Below are positions 5,354 to 9,037 of a stretch of 43,451 bases of DNA, in pieces. Below the pieces are notes generated by a model. That model saw only the letters and a list, made by a program, of their open reading frames with translations, ran no database searches and had not been told where the DNA came from. A program made the position numbers and the translations under genes. Each line of letters starts with the position of its first letter. The first letter of the stretch is position 1. Origin of the DNA: Candidatus Poribacteria bacterium (lineage in GTDB: Bacteria > Poribacteria > WGA-4E > WGA-3G); the NCBI GenBank assembly GCA_022822085.1, contig JAJECK010000094.1, positions 1 to 43,451 of the forward strand, in the 5' to 3' direction.

Positions 5354-5382
5354 TTGCATAATCTCACTACATTTGCTATAAT
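5354..5382 (+). promoter_or_regulatory. Sigma-70-type promoter for the EF-Tu-like gene
   Basis: TTGCAT (5354-5359), a 17-base spacer, then a perfect TATAAT (5377-5382) on the plus strand. It lies about 50 bases before the ATG at 5434, which is itself preceded by AAGGAGA. This is the best promoter match in the window and argues that the degenerate EF-Tu-like gene is expressed. Confidence 0.65.
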
Positions 5383-5433
5383 AATTGATACTTCAAGAGC
5401 AATCATCCCCATTAAGAACATAAGGAGAAATAG

Positions 5434-6594
5434 ATGGACAACAAAAGAGGTAGTGCACATCTTGCTTTACCGATTTGTACACTTGGTGCGACTGACCACG
5501 GCAAAACGACTCTGACAGCAGCAATTGCAAAAGTCGTTGCCAGAATCGGTTCGATTCATTCTAAAATTGATACTCCATTTGATCAACTATTACATAATCA
5601 TTATTCTATTCGGGAAGGTGTAAGTATAACCTACCGTTCAATAGATTTCGAAACCAGTGGCAAACACTATACACAGATTGACTGCGAAACACATCTGGAT
5701 ATTGTCAAAATGCTGGTTAGTCGGGCATTTTCTATTCAAGGTGCAATTTGGGTAGTTGATGCTGTTGATGGAGTTACACCTGAATCTACCGAACATATTC
5801 GTATTGCAAACAGATTAAACACCCCTACCGTCATCTCCTTTCTCAATACACGAAACTCTGCAATTGATGATGAACTCATAGACATCTGCAAACAGGAAAT
5901 GCGCGAATTACTCACTGAAAATGGATGGGATGAAGATAACAATCCTATTATCGTTGGAGATGCAAATAAGGCATTAAAATACAAAGGTGATCGGATAGAC
6001 TCTGCCCAGTGGAAACCGATTGTTGACCTGATATTTGCCATGAATCGGTGCATGCCAAAACCCATCAATAACGATAGTCTTCCCCCAATTATGCCGATTT
6101 ATGAGATCGTTGAGGAGCAGAAAGAACGTGTAACGATTAAAGGTGAACTTGTTCAAGGACACCTTGCCGTTGGTCATGCTGTAGATATTGTCGGTAAAGG
6201 TGATAGGATCAAGACAAAATGTCTTAGCATAAAAGAGAATGAAGTTTGTGTTGAATCAGAACCGGATTGGTTGTCTGTTGGACAGGTGCTATGCCATCCG
6301 AAAACAATTAAGGCACATTCTGATTATACTGCACTTGTGTATCTTCTCACACAAGAAGAGAGTGGCACACATATCCCACTGATTGAAAATGACAAACCCG
6401 ATATACATCTGTGGAGTATTGATATATCAGCGCGTCTACATCTTCCCACAGATATATCAATCGTCTCTCCAGGTGAAAACGCTGATGTTTCATTTACACT
6501 TGAACTGCCTCTTGCCATGGAGGTAGGTACGACTTTTGAAGTAAAGAAGATGGGATCGCGTATTGGGCTCGGTGTTGTTACGTCTGTAGAATAA
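5434..6594 (+). CDS. EF-Tu-like protein with degenerate GTPase motifs (pseudo-EF-Tu)
   Basis: A 386-residue protein collinear with elongation factor Tu over all three domains: DHGKTTLTAAIAKV at the start, REGVSIT for RGITI, QEMRELLTENGWDEDNNPII for the helix before G5, a beta-barrel domain 2 (IKGELVQGHLAVGHAVDIVG) and a domain 3 ending SRIGLGVVTSVE. The P-loop G18-ATDHGKT is kept, but G3 DCPGH is D83-C-E-T-H87, G4 NKCD is N138-T-R-N141, and G5 GSALKAL is GDANKAL. Without the NKxD lysine and aspartate, normal guanine specificity is not expected. True EF-Tu motifs are nearly invariant, so this is a diverged paralogue, not the housekeeping tuf. The frame is fully open, with a good promoter and ribosome-binding site. 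A role in ribosome or tRNA regulation, or as a decoy, is speculation. Confidence 0.85.
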   Translation: MDNKRGSAHLALPICTLGATDHGKTTLTAAIAKVVARIGSIHSKIDTPFDQLLHNHYSIREGVSITYRSIDFETSGKHYTQIDCETHLDIVKMLVSRAFSIQGAIWVVDAVDGVTPESTEHIRIANRLNTPTVISFLNTRNSAIDDELIDICKQEMRELLTENGWDEDNNPIIVGDANKALKYKGDRIDSAQWKPIVDLIFAMNRCMPKPINNDSLPPIMPIYEIVEEQKERVTIKGELVQGHLAVGHAVDIVGKGDRIKTKCLSIKENEVCVESEPDWLSVGQVLCHPKTIKAHSDYTALVYLLTQEESGTHIPLIENDKPDIHLWSIDISARLHLPTDISIVSPGENADVSFTLELPLAMEVGTTFEVKKMGSRIGLGVVTSVE

Positions 6595-6620: not shown

Positions 6621-7121
6621 TTGATGTGTTTGCAGTTGCGCAATTCCCTTAAAATGAGATATTATTCCCCAAGTGGTATTACCACTGCTTCTATGAAGTT
6701 TTCAAATGAAGTTAAGGAATTTAGTCTTACATTCAACTCTGATAATACATGGTCAATAAAAATTGAATTTATAAGTATATATGAATTCTTTGATCGAGAT
6801 CCACCTCTTGCAGAAGGTGTAATGCCAGATGGCACAGTTACTTTAGTATGTGTATGGTCTGGCGATTACATATTTAAAGATGAAGTTCTTAAATTAACAC
6901 TATCAAATTCAGATGTGCAAGTAACGGCTGATCCAGAAAGATTGTTAGCTGTGGTTTCAAATGATCGAACTAAAAAAGAATATGAAACAGATTTTACAGA
7001 AGGTTTTGTATCGTATCTTATGAAACCTTTTGCAGAAACAACGGCATCATTAAAAGATGGTGAACTTGTATTGATTGCAACTAATGCAGAAGGTACCACT
7101 CAAAAAATGGCTTTGGATTAA
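6621..7121 (+). CDS. Hypothetical beta-rich protein, start uncertain
   Basis: An open frame of up to 166 residues beginning 26 bases after the EF-Tu-like gene. I do not recognise it. The sequence alternates polar and hydrophobic residues in strand-like blocks (FSLTFNSDNTWSIKIEF, TVTLVCVWSGDYIF, ELVLIATNAEGTT), which suggests a small beta-barrel or lipocalin-like fold. No candidate start (TTG 6621, ATG 6624, ATG 6654 or ATG 6693) has a convincing ribosome-binding site, so it may be read through from the upstream gene or be a remnant lacking its N-terminus. Base composition is clearly more AT-rich than in the preceding genes, and this continues through the next two genes. Confidence 0.45.
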   Translation: MMCLQLRNSLKMRYYSPSGITTASMKFSNEVKEFSLTFNSDNTWSIKIEFISIYEFFDRDPPLAEGVMPDGTVTLVCVWSGDYIFKDEVLKLTLSNSDVQVTADPERLLAVVSNDRTKKEYETDFTEGFVSYLMKPFAETTASLKDGELVLIATNAEGTTQKMALD

Positions 7122-7171
7122 TTATTAATATCACTAAGTTAGAATACAATCTATCAAAATCGGAGGTTGCC

Positions 7172-7924
7172 ATGAAACTTTACAGAGTATTTTCGGCTAT
7201 GTGTTTCTTATCGTGCATATTATTTATTAGTGGTTGTGTCCTCTCAACACAATCTAAAAACAATAAACTTGCACAACATGAAATTTCGGAAACATCGGCA
7301 TATAACAGATACAAAGAAACTGTAAAACAGGACTTGAAAACACATGAAATAATACGCGTATTAGTAAATTTAGCATACTTGGAATATAAACCGAACCCAG
7401 AAGAAAGTTTAGAATATATCAAAATAGCAATGGCATATTCTAATAAGATTGACCACAAACATGACTATATAGGTCAGTTGTTTATTCTATATGCCAAGTT
7501 ACATAAACTCTTGAATAAAGATTATAAACCATTATACATACTAATAAAGGGTGAGCGTATATTAGGTCACCATATTTCAAGGGAATTAAAAAAGCGAAAT
7601 CCGTATAAGAAGCAACTGGATAGATTTAGCAATCACCAGTCTTATGTATGGGAGGTGAACAAATGCAAAAGATATATGCGAAATGCTGGATACGATGTCG
7701 GTAGAGATAAAAGAGTTAGTATATTCTGGGGTATTAGTAGGGCAATTCTTTTAAAGCCTTGTATTAGTGTAATGGTATGGCCTTACAAATTGAGAAATGG
7801 TGACGCAACACTTTCATCGGATATATACTATTATGATTTTCTATCTTATTATTTGGATTTTGCCATGGATGGTTTCGATATAACACAAATGCCAGATCAC
7901 AGATACGCTAGTAGAGCTTATTAA
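7172..7924 (+). CDS. Putative lipoprotein of unknown function
   Basis: A 250-residue protein with a clear lipoprotein signal: a basic N-terminus (MKLYR), a hydrophobic core and a lipobox ISGC ending at C22. The mature part is lysine- and tyrosine-rich, with helical segments that could form TPR-like pairs (VNLAYLEYKPNPEESLEYIKIAMAYS, about residues 64-90). I recognise no domain. CGGAGG lies 6 bases before ATG 7172. A strong intrinsic terminator follows the stop codon, so this gene ends a transcription unit. It belongs to the AT-rich stretch of unknown genes downstream of the EF-Tu-like gene. Confidence 0.65.
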   Translation: MKLYRVFSAMCFLSCILFISGCVLSTQSKNNKLAQHEISETSAYNRYKETVKQDLKTHEIIRVLVNLAYLEYKPNPEESLEYIKIAMAYSNKIDHKHDYIGQLFILYAKLHKLLNKDYKPLYILIKGERILGHHISRELKKRNPYKKQLDRFSNHQSYVWEVNKCKRYMRNAGYDVGRDKRVSIFWGISRAILLKPCISVMVWPYKLRNGDATLSSDIYYYDFLSYYLDFAMDGFDITQMPDHRYASRAY

Positions 7925-7946
7925 CTTTAACGAAAGTCGGGGAAGT

Positions 7947-7983
7947 AAAAATCCTTGAAGTTGTTTTGACTTCAAGGATTTTT
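7947..7983 (+). terminator. Intrinsic terminator after the lipoprotein gene
   Basis: A perfect 15-bp inverted repeat: AAAAATCCTTGAAGT (7947-7961), a 7-base loop, and ACTTCAAGGATTTTT (7969-7983). The right arm supplies the T-run. The A/T-rich arms could allow it to work on both strands, but there is no minus-strand gene end here. Confidence 0.85.
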
Positions 7984-8040
7984 GCGTTATATTATAACGG
8001 AATTAGTCGTTTTGAGATTTGAAATTTTTTAATTTTTTAC

Positions 8041-8070
8041 TTGACAAAAACCTGACCAATATTGCATACT
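8041..8070 (+). promoter_or_regulatory. Candidate promoter with a long leader for the 8264 gene
   Basis: A consensus TTGACA (8041-8046) with a weak CATACT (8065-8070) 18 bases downstream. The following untranslated stretch of about 190 bases is not empty: GTTTCAATC (about 8096) and GACTGAAAC (about 8135) are near-complementary, and AGTTCATGA occurs twice (about 8150-8175). A structured leader is possible but not shown. Confidence 0.35.
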
Positions 8071-8263
8071 ATTTAAATCGTGAACTTGATAGAGAGTTTC
8101 AATCATACTGCAAAGTGTGGTTTCTATTAAAACAGACTGAAACCTGAAAGTTCATGATGTGTTAGTTCATGACTACTAATAAAACATTTGAATCGAATCA
8201 ATCTTAATATTGTAAAATGTCAAATCGTTTTTATTATCAATCCAATGATAAGAGTAAAGAAAA

Positions 8264-9037
8264 ATGAAAAATTTAATGTTGAATAGTTGCATAACCATAA
8301 TCATTATCTGTATTGCGCTCTATACCATATTGAGTATAAGCAAGAGCACAGAAACTAATGATGCGGGTTATCAAATGCTATCACGCGTTGAAATTGACAA
8401 TCTAAATCAAGTTAGTAAACCTGTTAACCAAGATCACTTGGCTACCAAACCTAATTTAGACATGAAGTATACTAAAGTAGATATGACTAATGGAGATAAG
8501 GGACAACATCGCGTAATACTTGCTGAAGATCAAAATGGCAATGAAGTATACGTAAAAGTAACTGACGAACATTTTGAAAAACTAAATAAGCAAGCAGGTC
8601 GTAAATTCTATAAGAATATACGTGGCGTTTCAGGACCTCCTCCAGAAGGTCATACTTATATAATACTCCCTGATGGAAGAGCTAAACGTGGTGAAGATGG
8701 TAAGCCTATCATACATAATCGCGATAATCCTTATTTCACTATTGAAAGTCAATTGGGGTTTGCTCCTACATTAGAGGAATATCGACATTATCAATCATTA
8801 GAAAATTCTTACTCACAAGCTGTAAAAGAAGGTCAATGGAAAAAAGCCGATCAAATACGGTCAAATATCTATAATTTAAGAGAGGAATATAAAGGTCAAT
8901 TACCTTATGTTTCTGTTGCGATGTTCAGTGATAAAAGCACTGATAGTCCAGAAATTCAAGAACAAGTAAATCAAATCCTTTATAGTGAATACGCTAAACA
9001 AGGATTCAGCCATTTAATACCAAAAGAGTATAGATAA
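8264..9037 (+). CDS. Hypothetical protein with N-terminal membrane anchor
   Basis: A 257-residue protein. Residues 8-26 (SCITIIIICIALYTILSIS) form one hydrophobic segment that is either an uncleaved anchor or a signal peptide. The rest is polar and charged, with RGVSGPPPEGHTYIILPDGRAKRGEDG (about 125-151), which may be a compact beta-hairpin domain, followed by helical segments (EEYRHYQSLENSYSQAVKEG). I recognise no family. The start is supported by the purine-rich AAGAGTAAAGAA before the ATG. Composition is AT-rich, like the two genes upstream. It is probably exported or periplasm-facing. Confidence 0.6.
   Translation: MKNLMLNSCITIIIICIALYTILSISKSTETNDAGYQMLSRVEIDNLNQVSKPVNQDHLATKPNLDMKYTKVDMTNGDKGQHRVILAEDQNGNEVYVKVTDEHFEKLNKQAGRKFYKNIRGVSGPPPEGHTYIILPDGRAKRGEDGKPIIHNRDNPYFTIESQLGFAPTLEEYRHYQSLENSYSQAVKEGQWKKADQIRSNIYNLREEYKGQLPYVSVAMFSDKSTDSPEIQEQVNQILYSEYAKQGFSHLIPKEYR

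Follow-up and report, generated by a model that had tools for sequence, protein, structure and literature searches.

We report an EF-Tu paralog, here given the working name pTu, that is encoded at positions 5434–6594 of a 43,451-nucleotide stretch of DNA from Candidatus Poribacteria (the window), on the forward strand, as are its control elements and the motifs described below. Few bacterial proteins are as conserved as EF-Tu, of which pTu is a copy that lacks the GTP switch and the tRNA site yet is nearly universal in one order of the phylum, an order of sponge-associated Poribacteria. Judged by its residues, pTu cannot carry tRNA in the normal, GTP-driven way, and because it has been retained under selection despite the loss of these parts, it must do something else. 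Tentatively, we favor a non-switching, EF-Tu-shaped adaptor with a translation-related partner as the best account of its role, with a mechanism that we infer from the residues lost and kept.

An intact paralog beside canonical tuf

The pTu reading frame begins with ATG, is intact, and encodes a 386-residue protein, for which the original prediction had claimed three-domain EF-Tu collinearity. This is borne out by an end-to-end alignment of residues 13–385 with the EF-Tu equivalog model TIGR00485, by matches above cut-off to Pfam GTP_EFTU (PF00009) and GTP_EFTU_D3 (PF03143), and by a predicted structure in which domains 1–3 are arranged as in the EF-Tu superfamily (TM-scores of 0.86–0.89). The TIGR00485 score of 235.9 bits falls short of the curated cut-off of 522.4 bits, which places the protein outside canonical EF-Tu, and full-length identity to EF-Tu is about 31–34%. 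The same model is matched by all 42 orthologs in the alignment, with an E value of 2e-77 at best, and EF-Tus in the PDB match pTu at 1.7e-65 and weaker; the best-matching models are those of EF-Tu, the SelB model scoring only 50 bits.

The promoter and ribosome-binding site that had been proposed ahead of the gene are present. The promoter (TTGCAT-N17-TATAAT; 5354–5382) consists of a −35 element, TTGCAT (5354–5359), and a −10 element, TATAAT (5377–5382), separated by a 17-bp spacer, and is followed by the ribosome-binding site AAGGAGAA (5422–5429), an AGGAG-type site being kept in most relatives. A TTGC-N19-TA[TC]AAT layout with the same 17-bp spacing is footprinted in 27 of the 29 distinct loci of family f1, which argues that the promoter is real; it was not found in the f1 loci L026 and L055, nor in families f2–f4. 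In f1 loci, the genes flanking pTu are rfaE2-like (divergent) and hisA (convergent), and in the other families of the order its neighbors differ. A search around the gene across families revealed no conserved operon partner and no translation neighbors, and no defense neighborhood was detected around this solitary gene; because the neighbors differ between families, context points to no functional partner. Codon bias, considered as a proxy for expression, is uninformative because the ribosomal-operon set does not differ from the window background. In the window, three open reading frames (166, 250, and 257 residues, none with a Pfam match) occupy positions 6621–9037 between pTu and hisA; the second has a lipobox-like N terminus, and third-position GC is 0.19–0.29. 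This block is found only in the window's genome, pTu adjoining hisA in the other f1 loci, and is probably an insertion.

That pTu might be the organism's only, and hence its functional, EF-Tu can be set aside: the genome of the window, 5.63 Mb in size and 96.5% complete, has a canonical tuf immediately following fusA (G000:C119), and pTu is therefore an extra paralog and not the elongation factor. The genome has one EF-Ts gene (G000:C54:1595–2221), which resembles a short form, with positions 2–95 and 175–286 of the tsf model matched in a 224-residue frame. Single-copy pTu orthologs, 38–89% identical to the window copy and free of internal stops, are present in 71 of the 73 genomes of the order (families f1–f4), and the two genomes without one are fragmentary, being split into 590 and 880 contigs at a completeness of 86% and 78%. 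The remaining families in the class and phylum have canonical tuf only, where it is assembled, with a single exception (G043, family f7; see below). When 387 genomes were scanned, 302 of them outside the phylum and with few genomes per family (i.e., a thin sampling), no pTu relative was found among the 302: their scores with the pTu profile, about 290 bits at most, resemble those of canonical tuf, as compared with at least 375 bits for pTu and 335 bits for the G043 protein; among the genomes searched, pTu occurs only in Poribacteria. Viral contigs scanned with this profile encode no relative detectable by the method, and the matches in a phage collection, at most 33% identical, are ordinary tuf, which led us to reject a viral origin or spread of pTu. 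An ordinary bacterial tuf is present in several of these "phage" records, some of which bear Salmonella genome titles and an EF-Tu annotation.

Among pTu sequences, the 25 closest pairs give dN/dS values of 0.06–0.13, and canonical tuf pairs of the same order mostly 0.02–0.06 (both by NG86); between the window genome and family f2, identity is 54% for pTu and 85% for tuf. pTu evolves faster than tuf, yet is under clear purifying selection. It is therefore a selected core gene rather than the unique decaying copy that it might have proved to be, given its occurrence in nearly every genome of the order, its open frames, and these dN/dS values, and its occurrence together with purifying selection excludes chance and decay as an explanation. 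With a canonical tuf alongside, these results support the initial view of pTu as a candidate EF-Tu-derived pseudo-GTPase kept under selection. In the tree, the pTu proteins form one clade (SH-aLRT 100), with the G043 protein falling between pTu and all EF-Tus; pTu is an ancient EF-Tu paralog in Poribacteria, vertically inherited.

Residues of the switch, tRNA, and ribosome surfaces

Functional sites were surveyed in the 42 orthologs by E. coli EF-Tu numbering, with a reference sequence checked by its length and motif positions. The motif changes originally noted in the window protein are real: DHGKTT is kept, DCPGH has become DCETH (G3, residues 83–87; 5680–5694), NKxD has become NTRN (G4, residues 138–141; 5845–5856), and SAL has become DAN in the G5 motif DANK (residues 176–179; 5959–5970). 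The P-loop of the window protein, GATDHGKT (G1, residues 18–25; 5485–5508), is atypical within the family in its DHGKT, since Asp at D21 is found in 1 of the 42 (the window only) and Gly in 31. G2 is broken too: in the switch I region (residues 54–67; 5593–5634), which is predicted to form an ordered β-hairpin, the threonine of RGITI (T61) is Ser64 in the window protein and is Thr in none of the orthologs. Losses extend to the other sites, with G83 kept in 1/42, D138 in 8/42, K136 in 9/42 (the position, T139 in pTu, being Thr in 26/42), and S173 in 0/42 (Asp in 40, Asn in 2), and G4 varies across families (NTRN, NTGG, NQTD, NKAE, and NKAD). By contrast, G18 is kept, as are K24 (41/42), T25 (40/42, plus one Ser), D80 (42/42), and N135 (41/42). 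The canonical EF-Tu combination of D21, T61, DCPGH, NKxD, and SAL is thus absent from pTu; residues for γ-phosphate sensing, hydrolysis, and guanine reading are lost, whereas those that bind the diphosphate and Mg2+ (the P-loop Lys and Thr, and Asp80) are kept in all but one ortholog. Such loss of G-motif residues within a conserved, selected GTPase fold is what characterizes a pseudo-GTPase. In the most diverged ortholog (L068, from genome G030) the P-loop is wholly lost, in an open frame of 386 residues that keeps the domain 2 and 3 signatures.

The aminoacyl-tRNA site has fared no better. Among the residues of the canonical pocket (H66, E215, F218, T228, E259, N273, and R288), six are replaced across the 42 orthologs, and N273 is taken out together with L277 by a 14-residue deletion in domain 2, present in 42/42; in the window, the deletion site and the EPDW signature that follows it (residues 276–279) lie at 6241–6273. 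The suggestion that pTu acts on aminoacyl-tRNA is accordingly unsupported, since no ortholog has kept the aminoacyl pocket, the contact made by R288, or the segment with N273. H84 and the SGRG loop of domain 2 are not kept either, and with R288 also lost, canonical ribosome docking is unlikely. Helix D (residues 145–160; 5866–5913), which in EF-Tu contacts L7/L12 and EF-Ts (PMC5770553; PMC5574714), retains D145, E147, L148, and E155 as invariant residues (D142, E144, L145, and E152 in E. coli numbering, 42/42), with E. coli L148 replaced by Ile in 39/42; the other EF-Ts contacts (Q114, H118, M349, and M351) are not kept. With this helix retained, the suggested action on ribosomes may still hold. 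EF-Tu has 247 nearly invariant columns, of which pTu keeps 57 and has lost 121, and 53 new fixed residues mark the family, with 29 falling in domains 2 and 3. The alignment places a family signature in domain 3, EESGTHIPLIENDK (residues 308–321; 6355–6396), with an invariant H313, and further on KKM (residues 371–373; 6544–6552) stands in place of EF-Tu REG 377–379, with K371 and K372 invariant in the 42. On direct reading, the N terminus of pTu shows no evident signal peptide.

An AlphaFold model of pTu made with the family alignment has a pLDDT of 91.5, with switch I a confident hairpin, and Foldseek matches it to the open GDP form of EF-Tu (1d8t, 1efc, and 1tui) at the TM-scores of 0.86–0.89 given above. 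The genome's own EF-Tu, modeled in the same way as a control, instead matches closed GTP forms (1exm, 1eft, 1ttt, and 2c77; TM 0.83–0.86), reaches a TM-score of only about 0.53 against GDP forms, and has switch regions of low confidence. Because the control model came from a shallower alignment (21 rows) and is less confident (pLDDT 78), conformation is a soft indicator and the contrast is supportive rather than proof; the prediction supports a pTu domain arrangement fixed in an open, GDP-like state. Compared with EF-Tu (TIGR00485), then, pTu has the same fold and architecture, and differs in its broken G2–G5, its lost aminoacyl-tRNA pocket, and its predicted open conformation.

Possible roles and precedents

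In the account that we tentatively favor, pTu would have ceased GTP-driven tRNA carriage and become a non-switching, EF-Tu-shaped binding protein, with a nucleotide either bound for good as part of its structure or not required at all; the kept phosphate-binding residues would fit a permanently bound nucleotide. Its action would rest on contacts with other proteins, most probably those of the translation machinery, via helix D (the L7/L12 stalk or EF-Ts), to which the new surface of domains 2 and 3 may add a contact, and would modulate translation instead of delivering tRNA. The helix D residues could also be kept for folding alone. A more specific version, in which a permanently open pTu docks at the L7/L12 stalk (or EF-Ts), competing or cooperating there and so regulating translation across the order, strikes us as possible but rather unlikely; if true, pTu would be a new type of EF-Tu-derived regulator without a GTP cycle. 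The family could bring to light a regulator of translation in sponge symbionts that are abundant and uncultured.

EF-Tu has many moonlighting roles, and it is conceivable, though on balance unlikely, that pTu is a structural remnant, nucleotide-free or with constitutive GDP, that serves as a scaffold outside translation, for example in the cell envelope or in host contact. The absence of translation neighbors, the loss of the tRNA and canonical ribosome surfaces, and the 29 of 53 new fixed residues in domains 2 and 3 would all suit such a role, but the strong constraint on helix D and on the phosphate-binding site argues against it, as does an N terminus without an evident signal peptide.

A change of nucleotide specificity is suggested by the sporulation protein SpoIVA, a TRAFAC GTPase relative derived from Era-like GTPases, in which Ser or Thr has replaced the Lys of NKxD, the Asp is under little constraint, and an acidic residue has appeared in G5; Era was turned into an ATPase by changes of this kind (PMC7952092). 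pTu likewise has Thr at K136 (T139) in 26/42, an unconstrained D138, and Asp at S173 (D176) in 40/42, with the P-loop Lys and Thr and D80 kept, and loss of NKxD together with an acidic G5 might have turned its guanine pocket into one for adenine, to bind ATP or ADP. We consider this a serious rival, though an unlikely one: SpoIVA keeps the sensor Thr and hydrolyzes ATP (PMC7952092), whereas pTu lacks this Thr in 42/42 as well as G83 and D21, G4 varies among the pTu families, and L068 is without a P-loop.

Although the overall EF-Tu shape and an evolution faster than that of tuf would suit a decoy (the role that had been proposed) or an immunity protein against toxins or phage proteins that target EF-Tu, the known target sites are gone. 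Thr382, the target of Doc, is found in 0/42, and the GITI stretch of switch I, which Lit cleaves, is changed; moreover, the gene is vertical, order-wide, syntenic within f1, and outside any variable defense island, and no viral contig in our scan encodes a relative of the pTu profile, which leaves the decoy proposal unsupported and improbable. A specialized active elongation factor (a stress or an antibiotic-resistant EF-Tu, like Streptomyces tuf3) is more improbable still, for the full three-domain architecture and the changed drug-contact residues (Q124, G316, and A375) are accompanied by a loss of switch, catalytic, and tRNA residues that, to our knowledge, has not been reported for tuf3-type factors. 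A decaying pseudogene, to which the broken G motifs and the P-loop of L068 might point, has a negligible probability and is refuted at the order level by 71/73 genomes, uniformly open frames, dN/dS of 0.06–0.13, and the conserved f1 promoter. Selection, lost target sites, and lost residues thus led us to reject or down-weight these last three readings.

The closest precedents, aSelBL and Ski7, belong to different families from pTu. The archaeal SelB-like protein aSelBL, whose function is unknown, is also an elongation-factor paralog whose G motifs degrade variably along the phylogeny, P-loop loss included, but it is SelB-derived and has retained its ribosome patches along with the pocket for aminoacyl-tRNA (PMC3037878), whereas pTu is bacterial, EF-Tu-derived, and without the pocket. 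Yeast Ski7, derived from Hbs1, is a translational GTPase paralog that binds rather than switches and serves as an adaptor; unlike pTu, which is without the guanine-reading residues and is predicted to be open and GDP-like, it is eukaryotic, GTP-bound, and active-like (PMC4509514). Among bacteria, a survey of translational GTPases found actEF-Tu (Streptomyces tuf3) to be the only clearly distinct EF-Tu-like subfamily; it too is a second, diverged EF-Tu, but as an actinobacterial duplicate with translation-competent motifs it is a stress-expressed translation factor (PMC4342817), whereas pTu is far more diverged and, by its residues, is not competent. A search of the open literature found no description of a degenerate EF-Tu paralog in Poribacteria.

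The relative in family f7

The exception outside the order is encoded at L089:405–1661, on a contig of 4.2 kb from a MAG (G043) that is 79% complete and in which the genome's own tuf was not found, and may be a contaminant of the MAG. Its protein (INTERMEDIATE) keeps NKID and SAK as well as much of the aminoacyl-tRNA pocket (F218, T228, and E259) and has D21A, T61P, and G83D, and 23 of the 53 derived fixed residues of pTu are common to both. Its residues suggest an evolutionary intermediate between EF-Tu and pTu, and the same pattern, together with its place in the tree, suggests that guanine reading and the tRNA pocket disappeared after hydrolysis and γ-phosphate sensing had gone. The pTu family and this protein thereby constitute a natural experiment in the passage from a molecular switch to a static scaffold.
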